From: Curtobacterium sp. MCSS17_015
GTDB taxonomy: Bacteria > Actinomycetota > Actinomycetes > Actinomycetales > Microbacteriaceae
DNA length: 64,000 bases
Direction of reading: 5' to 3'
Assembly (NCBI RefSeq): GCF_003234265.2
Contig: NZ_CP126256.1
Location: 3,038,001-3,102,000, forward strand
The position numbers and the translations under genes were made by a program. How positions within the stretch are numbered: the first letter of the stretch is position 1; the number at the start of each line of letters is the position of its first letter. This document shows, piece by piece, positions 20,404-25,712 of the stretch. The notes under the pieces were generated by a model. The model was not told where the DNA came from, did not search any database, and was given only the letters and a program-made list of their open reading frames with translations.

Positions 20404-23208
20404 TCACTCGGCGCTGCCACCCGTCGTCCGGCGGCGACGGAGGGCGAGGAGCCCACCGCCGGCGGCCAGGAGGGCGAGTGTCGCCGCCAGCCCCGCGCCC
20501 AGCTCCGCACCGGTGAAGGCGAGGTCGCCGTCGGTGCTCGGCGCGCCGCCCGCACCCGGGGTCACGCCGACGCCACCGGCGACCGGGGCGGGGGTCGGTG
20601 TCGCGTCGTCCGCCTCGGGTGCCGGCGTGGGCTCCGGCGTCGGGTCGCCCGGTACCTCGGCCGCGCTCAGGTCGAACCCGACCAGGATCGGGTCGTGGTC
20701 GCTGGCGCGGTAGACGTCGTCCTCGTACAGGTCGGAGACGTTCACGTTGTACCGGCTGTACTCCAGGCCCACCGACTCGGTCGAGTTGATGTTCCAGATG
20801 TCCACGCCGGTGACCGACTCGAGCGCGGCCGGCGATGCCAGCACGTGGTCGAGGGACCCACTCAGACCGCTGAACACGTAGGAGTACTCGTCCTCGTCCT
20901 GCGCCGGAGCGAGGTCGGTGTACCCGGCGTCACGGAGCACCACCATCGGGTCCTCCTCGCTGTACGCGTTGAAGTCACCGATGAGGAAGGTCTTGTCGGT
21001 GCCGTACTGCTCCTGCATGGCGGTGGAGAAGGTCGCGAGGGCCCGCGCCTGTCGTACGCGGTCGGCGTTGGAAGCGCCCTGGCCGTCACCCTGGTCGGCG
21101 TTCTCGCCGGTGCCCGAGCCCTTCGACTTGAAGTGGTTCGCGATGACGAGGAAGTCGTCCTCCGCGGTGCCGCCGACCGGTCGGAAGGCGTCGGCGACGG
21201 GCTGGCGTGCGTTCGTGAACGCCGGGTCGATGAGGATCGTCGACTCGCCCGTGGGTGCGACCCGGTCCTTCTTGTAGATCAGGGCCAGGCGGATGACGTC
21301 CTCGCTGGTCGGTATCACGGACGGCGACTCCGCGTACGCCCAGGTGTCGGTCCCCGTCGCGGCGTTCAGCGCGGCCACGAGCGTGGCGACCGCGGCGTCC
21401 CGGTCCTGCCCGAAGGCCGCCGAGTTCTCGATCTCCTCGAGCGAGACCACGTCGGCGCCGAGGGCGTTGATCGCCTTCACGATCTTCACCTGCTGGCGGT
21501 CGAGGTCCTCCTGCTCGGCGGCACCGCGGGCGTCACAGCCGGAGTTCACCGTGATCGGGTCCCCCACGCGGTCCCGGTAGTACGTGCACCCGGTCAGCTC
21601 GTCACCGGTCGTCGGGAAGTAGTTCAGCACGTTGAACCCGGCGAGCGTGAGGTCGCCGCCGACCGCGGCGGGCGCCGGGGTACGGACGTCCGAGAACGAC
21701 GCGGGCAGGTCGGCCGCCGGGGTGGCGCCGGTGATCGGCGTCGTCGGCTGGAACTTCCAGGCGTTGTTCCGGTAGTCGAGGACCACGGGGTCGGTGAACG
21801 TCGTGGTGGCCCCGACCGTGATCGGACCCGCGTTCGTCAACCACGGGACCGGGATCCCGCGGGCGGCCTGGTCCTGGTCGTCGCGGGGCAGGAAGTTCGT
21901 GCTCGCGCCGTCGTCCAGCGTGACCTTGCGGGCCGCGTTGTCGGCGGCGACCGCAGCGGCCTCAGCGCTGCCCGGACGCGCGACCTCGGTCGGCTGCAGG
22001 AGCCGGCCGGCGCCCGTGGCCAGCGCGATCTCGCCGTACTGGTTCGTCGTGTAGTTGTCCGCGACCGTGTAGTCGCCCTGCGGCAGGACGAGCATGCTCT
22101 CGAGCGCTTCGCGCTCGGCGTCCGAGCGGGGGAACGCGACGGCTGCCGGCTGCGGCGCGACGGCGGGCGTGGTGAGCACCCGGAGTCCGGCGGCGCTCGG
22201 GACGGTGAGCTCGGTCAGCCCGTTGAACTCCGAGACCGCGCCGGTGACCTCGACGTGGTCACCGATCGCGACCCGGCCGACGGTGGCAGCGGAGTAGACG
22301 AAGAGCCCGTCGGACGCGGTCCGCGTGGCCGCGGCGCCCACGCCGGGCGTGCCCGGCGTCTGGATCGTGTAGCCGTTGAGGCCACCGGTCGCGTACACCG
22401 CAGTCACGACGCCGCTCGTGGTGACCGTCCTGCCGACGAGCGGCGAGGTGTCGGTCGTGCCCTGGACCTCGGGGATGGTCGCGGCGACCGCAGGGGTGGC
22501 GGGCGGTGTGGTGCCGCCGTCGCCCGGCGTCGGTGCGGACCCGCCGGTCGCGGTCTCGCCCTTCGCGTTCCGGGGGGTGATCGTGGTGGACAGCGTGAAG
22601 TCCGCGCGGTTGACGTCCGAGTCGGCGCCGCTCGTCGCGCGCGCCAGGGCGTCCGGTGTGGAGTTCGCTCCCGCCGGGTTCGTCGCCGCGGCCGTCTCGA
22701 ACGTGTTCGACGTCCCGTAGCCGAGCAGGTCCACCGCACCGGGGGTCCCGGCGGACACGGTGCCGGCGGGCAGCGTGAGGGCGGTGGCCCGGTCGGACAG
22801 CACGAGGGTGCCGGCGCTGCCGGACGCGTTGAGGGTCGACACCACGTCCGGCGTGGGCAGAGCCGCACCGGCCGTGCCGTTCGAACCACCCTGGACGAGG
22901 AAGGTCCCCTTCGCCGGGACCGTGCCCGTCAGGGGCACCACCGTGCTCGCGGCACCGGTGCTGGTCGCCGAGCGGTACTGCAGCGACCACCCGTCGACCG
23001 ACACGGCGGTGTCGGTCGGGTTGGCGATCTCGACGAACCGGTTCGTGAACGGCTGGTTCGTGCTGCCGCCCTTGAGGTACGCCTCGGAGATGACGAGTCC
23101 GGTGCCCGCGGGGTTCGCGGTCGCGGCGGTGACGGTGACGAGCGGTGCGGCGACCAGGGTCGCGGCAGCCGTGGCGCACAGCAGGGTGCGTCCGACGGTT
23201 CGTTGCAT
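20404..23208 (-). CDS. Secreted ExeM/NucH-type nuclease with LTD domain and LAFTG sortase signal
   Basis: 934 residues. Residues 1-32 are a Sec signal peptide. A lamin-tail domain (LVISEAYLKGGSTNQPFTNRFV, ~37-160) is followed by a Pro/Thr linker, an OB-fold segment (VGRTVTTSGVVTAVY..., ~215-330) and an endonuclease/exonuclease/phosphatase domain (~530-860). This last domain shows FNVLNYFPTTGDEL, VSLEEIENSA, IANHFKSKG, LIGDFNAYSEEDPM and ASDHDPILVGF, so the metal and catalytic Asp/His residues are present. The C-terminus is a Pro-rich spacer, LAFTG, a membrane helix and RRRR, a class E sortase signal. It likely degrades extracellular DNA while bound to the wall. ATG 23208 follows GAAGG. Confidence 0.92.
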   Translation of the reverse strand: MQRTVGRTLLCATAAATLVAAPLVTVTAATANPAGTGLVISEAYLKGGSTNQPFTNRFVEIANPTDTAVSVDGWSLQYRSATSTGAASTVVPLTGTVPAKGTFLVQGGSNGTAGAALPTPDVVSTLNASGSAGTLVLSDRATALTLPAGTVSAGTPGAVDLLGYGTSNTFETAAATNPAGANSTPDALARATSGADSDVNRADFTLSTTITPRNAKGETATGGSAPTPGDGGTTPPATPAVAATIPEVQGTTDTSPLVGRTVTTSGVVTAVYATGGLNGYTIQTPGTPGVGAAATRTASDGLFVYSAATVGRVAIGDHVEVTGAVSEFNGLTELTVPSAAGLRVLTTPAVAPQPAAVAFPRSDAEREALESMLVLPQGDYTVADNYTTNQYGEIALATGAGRLLQPTEVARPGSAEAAAVAADNAARKVTLDDGASTNFLPRDDQDQAARGIPVPWLTNAGPITVGATTTFTDPVVLDYRNNAWKFQPTTPITGATPAADLPASFSDVRTPAPAAVGGDLTLAGFNVLNYFPTTGDELTGCTYYRDRVGDPITVNSGCDARGAAEQEDLDRQQVKIVKAINALGADVVSLEEIENSAAFGQDRDAAVATLVAALNAATGTDTWAYAESPSVIPTSEDVIRLALIYKKDRVAPTGESTILIDPAFTNARQPVADAFRPVGGTAEDDFLVIANHFKSKGSGTGENADQGDGQGASNADRVRQARALATFSTAMQEQYGTDKTFLIGDFNAYSEEDPMVVLRDAGYTDLAPAQDEDEYSYVFSGLSGSLDHVLASPAALESVTGVDIWNINSTESVGLEYSRYNVNVSDLYEDDVYRASDHDPILVGFDLSAAEVPGDPTPEPTPAPEADDATPTPAPVAGGVGVTPGAGGAPSTDGDLAFTGAELGAGLAATLALLAAGGGLLALRRRRTTGGSAE

Positions 23209-23331
23209 GAGGACCTTCGGTTCGTGGTCGGGAGGGATCCCGACGACCGTACGGTCCTGCACGGGCGCACAGGTTACGAGCGGGTGAACCTTCCCCCCGG
23301 ACGAGGGTCGACCGCCCGTTCCGGGATCCGG

Positions 23332-23583
23332 TCACGCTCCGGCGAGGACGCGGATGATGACGACGCCGACAGCGATGAGGTACCAGCCGACGAGGTTCCC
23401 GCGCGACCGAGCGAGGACGATCGAAACGCCCCCCGCTCCTGCGGCCGTCACCGAGGCGACACCCCGTACCGGCAGGCTCTGGTCCTCCACCCCTGCCACC
23501 AACAGCGCCAGCGTCGTGATGACGGCGAGGACCATGACGGCTGATCGCCTGAGCGACCACGAACCTCCCGGACGCTTCATCAT
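23332..23583 (-). CDS. Small membrane protein at the end of the peptide/ABC operon
   Basis: 83 residues with three hydrophobic stretches: SAVMVLAVITTLALLVAG, VASVTAAGAGGVSIVLA and LVGWYLIAVGVVIIRVLAG. I know no family. ATG 23583 (or the adjoining ATG 23580) overlaps the permease stop as ATGA, so it is translated with the transporter. Its size, topology and position fit an accessory or immunity protein for the secreted peptide; that is inference from context. Confidence 0.65.
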   Translation of the reverse strand: MMKRPGGSWSLRRSAVMVLAVITTLALLVAGVEDQSLPVRGVASVTAAGAGGVSIVLARSRGNLVGWYLIAVGVVIIRVLAGA

Positions 23584-24293
23584 GCTGATGCTCGCTTGGT
23601 GCGAACCCACCCGACGAGAAGTGGCAGAGCGATCCACAGCAGCGTCGAGGTGACGGTGGGAAGGAACGCTGTCGTTCCGGTGGACGCGCTCTGGACAGTG
23701 CTGAAGCGGATGAAGACGCTCCAGTCCCCGAGGAAGCCGAGCAGGGCGTCCACCACGAGCAGGACGAGGACGACCGTCACCACGCTGAGTGTCAACGAAC
23801 GGCAGGCCGACCCGATCCCGAAGCCAGCCGCTGCAGACGACAACGACAGGCCCGCGACCTGACCAACCGCTCCGAGCGGGACACCGGATCGGAGGTTTCC
23901 ACCCAGGAGGACGGCCACGCCGGCGCTCGCAGCGGCGACGACTGCGGTGAAGAGCACGAGCGCGGCGATCACCACGATGCACGCCGCACCACGCGCGAAG
24001 AACGCCGCGTCACGGGAATGCCCACCGAGGAGCACATCACCTTCACCGCCCCGTCCGGCATCGCCCACACCGACAACCGCTCCGACGATCGACGAGGCGA
24101 GCGCTGCTGCGAGGCCAGTGGTGACGACGACCTCACTCGCCGCGAATGAGTCAGCCCGGGTCACCACGGAGACGCTGAGCGCACCACACAGCATCACGAT
24201 GAGAGCGAGGAACCCGTATCCGGTCGTGGAACCGCGTGTGTCGAACCGCTTACGGAGTTCCAACCCGATCAGTCTGCAACACCGACTCGTCAT
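23580..24293 (-). CDS. ABC-2-like transporter permease
   Basis: 237 residues with six predicted membrane helices, beginning with a short basic cytoplasmic N-terminus (RLIGLELRKRFDTRGSTTGYG) that is typical of ABC-2 permeases. There is a large Gly/Ala-rich loop after helix 2 (GVGDAGRGGEGDVLLGG) as in export permeases with an intracellular coupling helix. ATG 24293 overlaps the ATPase stop as ATGA. Forms one transporter with the gene upstream; substrate probably the peptide encoded first in the operon, or toxins resembling it. Confidence 0.8.
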   Translation of the reverse strand: MTSRCCRLIGLELRKRFDTRGSTTGYGFLALIVMLCGALSVSVVTRADSFAASEVVVTTGLAAALASSIVGAVVGVGDAGRGGEGDVLLGGHSRDAAFFARGAACIVVIAALVLFTAVVAAASAGVAVLLGGNLRSGVPLGAVGQVAGLSLSSAAAGFGIGSACRSLTLSVVTVVLVLLVVDALLGFLGDWSVFIRFSTVQSASTGTTAFLPTVTSTLLWIALPLLVGWVRTKRASA

Positions 24294-25162
24294 GATGCCT
24301 CCGCTTCGTGTTCTGCTGACGACGTCGCCTCGTACAGCGCCTCGAGCGTGCCGTGACGCGGGGACACCGCCATGACTCGGACGCCGACCTCCACGGCGAA
24401 CCGGACGGCCGCATCGGGCGCGGCCTCGACGAGGAGGCCCGACGCTCCCGGCGTCACAGGCACGCCCTCGTCCTGCAGCGCCGCCATCAGCGCACTCGGT
24501 CGATCCACCGCGATCACGCATCGCTCGGCGCTCCGGAAGTCGTGGTCGTGGATGCGGGCGACCCGCCCTCGACTCATGACGATCGCGGTGTCGATCATCG
24601 GTTCGAGCTCGGCGAGCAGGTGGCTCGACACCAGGACTGTGGCGCCCGCGCTCCTGAGGTCGGATACGACACCGCGCACCCAGGTGATGCCGTTCGGATC
24701 GAGTCCGTTCGTCGGTTCGTCCAACACGACGAGAGATGGCTCACCCAACAGGGCGACCCCGATGGCAAGCCGCATCCGCATCCCGAGCGAGAGCGCTCCG
24801 ACTCGGCGGCTCATGACGTTGTCGAGACCGGTTCGCCGGGCGGCAGCGGTCACCTGCGCACTGTCCGCGTCGACGTACCTCGCGCGCAGCCAGAGCGTCT
24901 CCCGGACCGTCCGCCCGGGATGGACACCCGAATCACCGAATACCGCCCCCACGGCTCGCCCCTGCTGCCACGGCAGACCAGACATGTGGCCCCCGTCCGT
25001 CGGCAGCAGCCCGGTGATGACCCTGAGCAGGGACGACTTCCCAGCACCGTTCGGCCCGATCAGGCCGTACACCTGCGCGCGTTCGAATCTGAGCGTGATG
25101 TCGTCCAGCCGAGGCCTGCCTCGGCCCCGCACGACGATGTTCGCGAGCTCCATCACTGGCAC
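24290..25162 (-). CDS. ABC transporter ATP-binding protein
   Basis: 290 residues. Walker A is GPNGAGKSSLL (about 36-46), the signature is LSLGMRMRLAIGVALLG (the usual LSGGQ is LSLGM), and Walker B is LVVLDEPTNGLD followed by the switch histidine in VLVSSHLLAEL. The usual Q-loop position reads FGDSG, so the canonical glutamine is not obvious. The C-terminal ~85 residues resemble the accessory region of ABC-2 exporters. GTG 25162 has a GGTGAG site; ATG three codons later is an alternative. It is 42 bp downstream of the peptide gene. Confidence 0.9.
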   Translation of the reverse strand: MPVMELANIVVRGRGRPRLDDITLRFERAQVYGLIGPNGAGKSSLLRVITGLLPTDGGHMSGLPWQQGRAVGAVFGDSGVHPGRTVRETLWLRARYVDADSAQVTAAARRTGLDNVMSRRVGALSLGMRMRLAIGVALLGEPSLVVLDEPTNGLDPNGITWVRGVVSDLRSAGATVLVSSHLLAELEPMIDTAIVMSRGRVARIHDHDFRSAERCVIAVDRPSALMAALQDEGVPVTPGASGLLVEAAPDAAVRFAVEVGVRVMAVSPRHGTLEALYEATSSAEHEAEAS

Positions 25163-25204
25163 GTTTCACTCACCGCCCGGTTCGCTGCGGTCGTGCTGCA
25201 TCGT

Positions 25205-25621
25205 TCATCCGAAGAAGTGGTGCCAGAGCTGGCTGAAGAGCTCTTGAAGGCTCATCTGCGCCAGCGCGCTGATCCCGGTCCGGATCCAGCTGGCGAGGCC
25301 GTTCCACCAGTTCTTGAAAGCGTTGAAGCCACTGCGGAGCGCGTTCTTGAGCGCAGGGATGACGGACGACGCGTTGCGCTTGAGCCAGTCGACGATCGGC
25401 CTGATCGGCACCCCGTCCGTGGAGGCGCCGGTGTGAGACAGCGTGGACGGTCCAGTGGTCACCGACGGGGCGACCCCACCGGACGGCACCGTCGGCGTCG
25501 ACGCTCCCCTGACAGTGACACTCGTCAGCGGTACGGCGGAGGCTGCGGTCACACCGACCGGACTCAGCATCGCTCCGACGACGACAGCCCCGACGATCCC
25601 AGCGGTGCGTGCTCTGTTCAT
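25205..25621 (-). CDS. Secreted cationic Trp-rich peptide, bacteriocin-like (unrecognised family)
   Basis: 138 residues. Residues 1-29 form a Sec signal peptide ending ASA. A Ser/Thr/Pro-rich stretch (~30-75) follows. The final ~62 residues are amphipathic, basic and aromatic: VDWLKRNASSVIPALKNAL, then FNAFKNWWNGLASWIRTG, then LQELFSQLWHHFFG. This segment has five tryptophans and about six basic against two acidic residues. I know no matching family; it lacks the lactococcin-972 motif and cysteines. GAGGAGAGG before ATG 25621 is a strong ribosome site, with a 9-bp hairpin just upstream. The order peptide-ATPase-permease-small membrane protein resembles bacteriocin immunity/export operons. Confidence 0.7.
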   Translation of the reverse strand: MNRARTAGIVGAVVVGAMLSPVGVTAASAVPLTSVTVRGASTPTVPSGGVAPSVTTGPSTLSHTGASTDGVPIRPIVDWLKRNASSVIPALKNALRSGFNAFKNWWNGLASWIRTGISALAQMSLQELFSQLWHHFFG

Positions 25622-25635
25622 GTGACCCCTCTCCT

Positions 25636-25659
25636 CTCGACGGCCAGGTTGCCGTCGAG
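25636..25659 (-). promoter_or_regulatory. mRNA hairpin in the peptide-gene leader
   Basis: CTCGACGGC and GCCGTCGAG form a perfect 9-bp stem with a 6-nt loop, ending next to the AGGAGAGG ribosome site. It may protect the mRNA 5' end or tune translation of the peptide. Confidence 0.5.
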
Positions 25660-25677
25660 GAGATCGTGGCACAACTA

Positions 25678-25701
25678 GAATACAGAGTACAAGTACCAGT
25701 A
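25678..25701 (-). repeat. AT-rich hexamer direct repeats in the peptide-gene promoter region
   Basis: On the minus strand three tandem hexamers TACTGG-TACTTG-TACTCT (25701-25684) are followed by GTATTC, and TATTCT at 25682-25677 could serve as the -10 box. This is the most AT-rich intergenic patch noticed in the window and may be a regulator binding site. Confidence 0.45.
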
Positions 25702-25712
25702 TTTCATGGCCC

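Follow-up and report, generated by a model that had tools for sequence, protein, structure and literature searches.

A linked Trp-rich precursor peptide and ABC transporter gene pair in Curtobacterium as a candidate pro-bacteriocin operon

What does a secreted, Trp-rich peptide do when its gene is read in one row with genes for an ATP-binding cassette (ABC) transporter and a small membrane protein? The question is raised by a locus of Curtobacterium sp. MCSS17_015 in the 64,000-nucleotide stretch of DNA analyzed here (the window; G000:C1:3038001-3102000, G000 being the source genome in our sample of 66 Curtobacterium genomes). Reading of the open reading frames (ORFs) showed four genes on the minus strand at 23332-25621, in the order peptide, ABC ATPase, permease, and 83-amino-acid (aa) membrane protein, with all frames intact. 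This agrees with an earlier annotation of the stretch (the original prediction), which had placed the four ORFs in one operon and had seen in them a new bacteriocin system. Our analysis suggests that the set is probably a pro-bacteriocin operon, in which the peptide would represent a new Sec-exported family and the other genes would provide self-immunity. Older reports describe bacteriocin activity in plant-pathogenic coryneforms, without genes known to us. Among the matches listed in the open-licence PubMed Central literature, there was no description of the Curtobacterium peptide.

The precursor peptide and its conserved core

The precursor gene (25205-25621, minus strand) has an ATG start preceded by GAGAGGAGAGGGG and encodes 138 aa. 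Three parts can be distinguished: a signal (approximately residues 1-29), a Ser/Thr/Pro spacer (approximately 30-68), and an amphipathic Trp-rich core (approximately 71-138; 25208-25411). The signal-like start was read by pattern as a basic start, a hydrophobic stretch, and ASA before VP, the putative cleavage site (ASA/VP); it is only at the level of this pattern that the predicted Sec signal was borne out. In the C-terminal 68 residues, seven Lys and Arg, two Asp and Glu, and five Trp residues were counted, and the entire precursor is free of Cys. The length, the spacer, the basic C terminus, and the Trp and Cys counts of the original prediction were all confirmed.

A first protein search returned thirteen relatives of the precursor. 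In the resulting 14-sequence alignment, the signal-like start and the C-terminal part are conserved and the spacer varies in length and sequence. Five Trp residues (Trp79, Trp105, Trp106, Trp112, and Trp133) are invariant, and in distant relatives QKR/I is present near the position of residues 66-72. The mean helical moment of the core was 0.469; when its residues were shuffled, the mean was 0.220 (sd 0.049), and 0/5000 shuffles attained the observed value. For six distant cores, the observed amphipathicity was reached in 0 to 20 of 2000 shuffles, so that each of the seven cores tested exceeded nearly all of its shuffles. Six pairs of sequences were compared for selection, two of them near-identical and with too few changes to judge; in the four divergent pairs, dN/dS was 0.14-0.25 in the core and 0.18-0.36 before it. 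A structure model computed from 12 cores showed four helices (pLDDT 72.8, pTM 0.54). Neither Pfam (at E <= 1) nor NCBIfam contains a family that matches the precursor, which is consistent with the proposed new peptide family.

Distribution in Curtobacterium and beyond

The precursor was found in 13/66 Curtobacterium genomes, and in 12 of the 66 all four genes lie together at one site, which shows conservation of the set. In these 12 carriers, the main site is bounded by a nuclease gene and by a metallo-hydrolase (mbl) or truA gene. The permease was detected in exactly the 12 cassette genomes (E <= 0.001). The small protein is also present in 12/12 carriers; it was missed by tblastn at four loci (L019, L020, L023, and L024) and recovered there by ORF reading and genome search. 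At four cassette loci (L019, L021, L022, and L024), mbl was not found and the precursor gene adjoins truA. Outside the 14 aligned sequences, the precursor of genome G055 has Arg in place of Trp112, where the other carriers have Trp. At its precursor locus (L023, 8631-9047 and 9296-10032), the mbl match is split in two pieces; the very close genome G003 has kept Trp112 and an unbroken mbl match. The G055 copy is possibly decaying.

The thirteenth genome, G011, has a distant precursor at another locus (27% identity, E 1.5e-7), near which a PadR gene, an ABC ATPase, a permease, and a CPBP-DUF418 protein are encoded. Profile comparison related the G011-type sequences to the main cores at 97.3% (E 2.3e-11), a value for which the five G011-type sequences came from family profiles already holding G011, so that the independent evidence is the single-sequence match.

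In 19 of the 53 peptide-less genomes, the site was inspected. No precursor and no permease were found at these 19 sites, and the ATPase matches there were 29-37% identical and located beyond truA. At 18 of the 19, the nuclease gene lies beside mbl, in three cases with an orphan small protein between them; the remaining site (G042, L051) gave no match to the nuclease. Where both neighbors are present without an orphan (15 sites), 55-215 bases separate the matched ends. The nearest relatives of the source genome by mbl identity, G036 (99%) and G045 (98%), have such an empty site.

Altogether, the small membrane protein occurs alone in 4/53 peptide-less genomes (G012, G037, G033, and G052), each time at the same site. 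Between G033 and G052, one nonsynonymous and eight synonymous changes were counted (dN/dS 0.05). The hosts of these two orphans are only about 4% distant from the full-set carriers L016 and L017 (nuclease and TruA distance), and their small proteins differ by at least 48% from that of every carrier. Such allelic differences at a single site among closely related hosts would be expected of immunity genes that differ in specificity, and they suggest allele exchange. Six further small-protein matches (E 0.001-0.01) lay inside frames of 408-495 aa and were dropped as chance.

Outside the genus, all counts are lower bounds: the alignment-based scan of genome contigs used one peptide pattern, and the alignment searches scored no more than 10 first-look candidates in each genome. 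The contig scan gave at least 12 loci, seven of them in Curtobacterium and one each in Frondihabitans PhB188, Glutamicibacter soli, G. protophormiae, Sinomonas ASV322, and an uncultured Micropruina. The order-level scan matched at least 5/396 genomes at E <= 1e-4, namely, the source genome, G657 (the G. protophormiae locus), G702, G727, and G796. The G796 match was dropped as chance on inspection, as were seven family-level matches at E 0.002-0.009. Eight lineages were distinguished: main Curtobacterium, G011-type Curtobacterium, Frondihabitans, Glutamicibacter, Sinomonas, the Micropruina metagenome-assembled genome, G702, and G727.

In seven of these eight lineages, all but G727, an ABC ATPase gene lies no more than 3 kb from the precursor gene. 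The rough chance of such linkage is 5e-5, if one ABC ATPase per 32 kb is assumed (from 105 first-look candidates) and the lineages are treated as the random draw that they are not. Absence of conserved linkage between peptide and transporter had been set beforehand as grounds against the original prediction; the linkage was found in 12/12 main-site genomes and in 7/8 lineages. A CPBP/CAAX-type protein scored above the Pfam cut-off in 4/8 lineages (Glutamicibacter, Micropruina, G702, and G011). Outside Curtobacterium, the gene order is precursor-ATPase-permease in three lineages, followed by an 84-aa membrane protein in Frondihabitans, a small membrane protein in Sinomonas, and a CPBP gene in G702. 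In Glutamicibacter it is precursor-CPBP-PadR-small membrane protein-ATPase-permease, and in Micropruina precursor-CPBP-small membrane protein-ATPase-permease, with the ABC genes located by tblastn. At the G727 locus, a PadR gene faces the precursor gene.

The history of the cassette was also considered, since the original prediction had held horizontal acquisition to be possible. Cassette distances track host distances in the 12 carriers (Mantel r 0.875, 0/2000 permutations), and the cassette protein distances are approximately three times the host distances. On this correlation, recent horizontal gain finds no support as the main history. Contrary signs are the empty sites of the nearest relatives, the apparent exchange of orphan alleles, and the G+C content of the cassette, 0.65-0.68 versus 0.70-0.75 in the compared flanks of the 12 carriers. 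The small protein tracks its hosts less closely (r 0.626, 16 genomes, 0/2000 permutations). These data are better explained by a set that has long been resident, with losses and some exchange of alleles, than by a single recent transfer.

Transporter, small membrane protein, and leader region

The ATPase gene (24290-25153, minus strand, 287 aa) begins 51 bases after the precursor gene. Its product is a probable immunity pump. The top NCBIfam model was TIGR03740 (lantibiotic protection) with 144.2 bits, below the cut-off of 309.75, and the PmtC and PmtA models also matched, far below their cut-offs. The next gene (23580-24293, minus strand, 237 aa; ATG at 24293-24291) encodes an ABC-2-like permease. 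The permease itself has no Pfam match; it was assigned by position and by weak Pfam matches of its relatives. The last gene (23332-23583, minus strand) encodes the 83-aa small membrane protein, which has two to three helices and is probably a dedicated immunity protein. Of the three transmembrane segments originally predicted for it, two were clear in a hydropathy scan; the middle helix could be made out only by visual inspection of an alignment of relatives. The predicted ATGA overlaps are present at both junctions, ATPase/permease (24290-24293) and permease/small protein (23580-23583). ORF reading revealed no gene for a regulator or sensor inside the four-gene operon.

Upstream of the precursor gene lies an AT-rich promoter/leader region (25622-25712, minus strand). 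The G+C content is 55% over 25622-25712 and 45% over 25666-25712, versus 70% in the whole window; only 0.03% of the 47-base stretches in the window reach 45%. The stretch before the precursor gene thus ranks among the most AT-rich parts of the window, as the original prediction had stated for the intergenic promoter. The leader of the mRNA for the precursor contains an inverted repeat, CTCGACGGC/GCCGTCGAG, at 25622-25665, just ahead of the ribosome site. In 11 to 12 of the 12 aligned carriers, its central 4-bp pairing persists; one change is compensatory, and one pair is broken. This possible hairpin comprises 4 base pairs only, and we do not press it.

On the other side of the operon, an extracellular nuclease gene adjoins (20404-23262, minus strand). 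At the C terminus of the nuclease, LAFTG is followed by a hydrophobic stretch and then by RRRR, a tail that resembles those of sortase-anchored surface proteins.

Proposed function and comparison with known systems

We propose that the 138-aa precursor exits by Sec and that its signal is cut at ASA/VP. An extracellular protease would then remove the spacer, with a cut near residues 66-72. The arrangement of a conserved core behind a variable spacer points to extracellular release by proteolysis, as for the protease-activated antimicrobial peptide (PAMP) described below. The freed cationic, Trp-rich amphipathic helices of approximately 68 residues would permeabilize the membranes of related actinobacteria, perhaps in the manner of aureocin A53. 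The ATPase and permease could expel the peptide from the membrane of its producer and thus confer LanFEG-like immunity, to which the small membrane protein would add extra or stand-alone immunity. Because the precursor carries its own Sec-type signal, immunity is the more likely role of the ABC pair; of the two functions originally proposed for the transporter, export is therefore less favored. The orphan small proteins and the CPBP neighbors in relatives point to a bacteriocin with immunity; release of the core, killing, and the immunity roles are our inferences.

Several observations weigh against this proposal. The fold search of the PDB with the core model gave no match at E <= 0.001, and a further comparison with 15 chains gave no confident one. 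Neither by sequence nor by fold could the peptide be matched confidently to a known bacteriocin. The full-length model was poor and merged the first three core helices (helices 73-122 and 125-137). In two of the four divergent pairs, the core and the residues that precede it are under similar constraint, and the G012/G037 orphan pair is under weak constraint (dN/dS 0.57). At the G727 locus, no ABC gene was found in 13.5 kb around the precursor with five ATPases as queries. Other ABC ATPases near the Curtobacterium site are 30-34% identical to the operon ATPase. The Frondihabitans 84-aa protein was rejected as a homolog of the 83-aa protein (no tblastn match; profile score of 2.0 bits versus up to 9.8 in shuffles); the small protein is therefore shown only in Curtobacterium. 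Finally, a CAAX protease encoded beside a bacteriocin acted in signal processing and not in immunity (PMC9298176), and for this reason a CPBP neighbor does not prove immunity.

Among other explanations, the peptide could be a surfactant or cytolysin-like molecule in the style of the phenol-soluble modulins (PSMs) and Pmt, with which the bacterium would spread on surfaces or attack cells of plants or other eukaryotes, and from which the ABC genes would protect the membrane. Its amphipathic, Trp-rich core, the distant PmtC and PmtA matches of the ATPase, and the plant-associated life of the genus would suit such a molecule. However, PSMs are leaderless and exported by Pmt, in contrast to the Curtobacterium precursor with its Sec-type signal, and orphan small proteins in peptide-less strains fit inter-strain killing better; the CPBP neighbors in relatives also speak against a surfactant, which we regard as unlikely. 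A signaling peptide, processed extracellularly and sensed or imported via ABC proteins, would account for the PadR regulators (PF03551 above cut-off) near the precursor in the Glutamicibacter, G011, and G727 loci. Yet at 68 residues, the conserved and highly amphipathic core would be a long signal, and the operon lacks a visible regulator or sensor gene, making this role quite improbable. The Sec-type signal and the sortase-like tail of the neighboring nuclease could likewise suggest a structural or surface protein, in whose assembly the ABC genes serve. This is very improbable, given the patchy presence (13/66) and the absence from the nearest relatives, which are unlike a structural part, and given that the nuclease gene also occurs without the cassette.

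A wider picture can also be drawn, to which we give about an even chance. The peptides would form a new class of Sec-exported pro-bacteriocins in four actinobacterial families (by family codes), in which one conserved Trp-rich core goes together with immunity modules that can be exchanged (an ABC pair, small membrane proteins, or a CPBP protein). At one fixed chromosomal site, Curtobacterium strains that do not produce the peptide would retain diverged orphan alleles for immunity, a pattern like that of a continuing polymorphism of producers and resistant strains. The locus thus offers a concrete, testable bacteriocin candidate in a plant-associated genus, with a core that profile tests distinguish from those of the aureocin and lactococcin 972 types. 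The full, orphan, and empty states of the fixed site make producer, resistant, and sensitive dynamics directly testable with strain pairs.

The lactococcin 972 family consists of secreted bacteriocins that are often followed by ABC genes, a likeness drawn by the original prediction. As a membership, it did not hold, since the precursor has no PF09683 match. Two PF09683 genes are present elsewhere in the source genome, outside the window (C1:3245225-3245407, minus strand, and C1:1159611-1159796, plus strand; 46.3 and 30.8 bits, both above the cut-off; L087 and L088), and the genome may make several peptide bacteriocins. The ATPase and permease beside a membrane-active-looking peptide recall the TIGR03740 LanFEG and PmtC systems; they differ in that the score is below the curated cut-off and that the operon has one permease gene without a Pfam match.

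One report counts Curtobacterium and Frondihabitans among the genera without described bacteriocins and reports aureocin A53-like peptides in both (PMC11580447). Aureocin-like peptides (PF11758) matched in 4/66 genomes of our sample (G054, G037, G011, and G021), none at the cassette site; G054 holds both a PF11758 locus and the four-gene cassette. PF11758 does not match the precursor, and profile comparison gave a probability of 5.2%, so that membership in the aureocin-like family was rejected; a resemblance in layout to the G011-type peptides was not backed by profile comparison either. At each of the four PF11758 loci (L083-L086, L090-L093), an ABC ATPase lies within approximately 1.1 kb and is 34-39% identical to the operon ATPase, which means little alone because other ATPases at the site reach 30-34%. 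Aureocin A53 itself has 51 residues with five Trp and a cationic core, is accompanied by ABC transporter-like genes, and acts on membranes (PMC11580447). Aureocin A53-like peptides are leaderless, whereas the Curtobacterium precursor has a signal-like start and a spacer (by pattern, in 14 aligned sequences). A cationic core, five Trp residues, and nearby ABC genes are common to both.

In the architecture of its precursor, the Curtobacterium peptide may be likened to PAMP of Propionibacterium jensenii, an actinobacterial peptide whose precursor has a 27-aa signal peptide and extracellularly releases its active C-terminal part (6383 Da) (PMC5756557). The available part of the PAMP description names no ABC or small-protein immunity genes, which sets the two systems apart. 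The likeness is one of architecture: the arrangement of signal, propeptide, and C-terminal active part seen in PAMP is predicted for the Curtobacterium precursor from its sequence.

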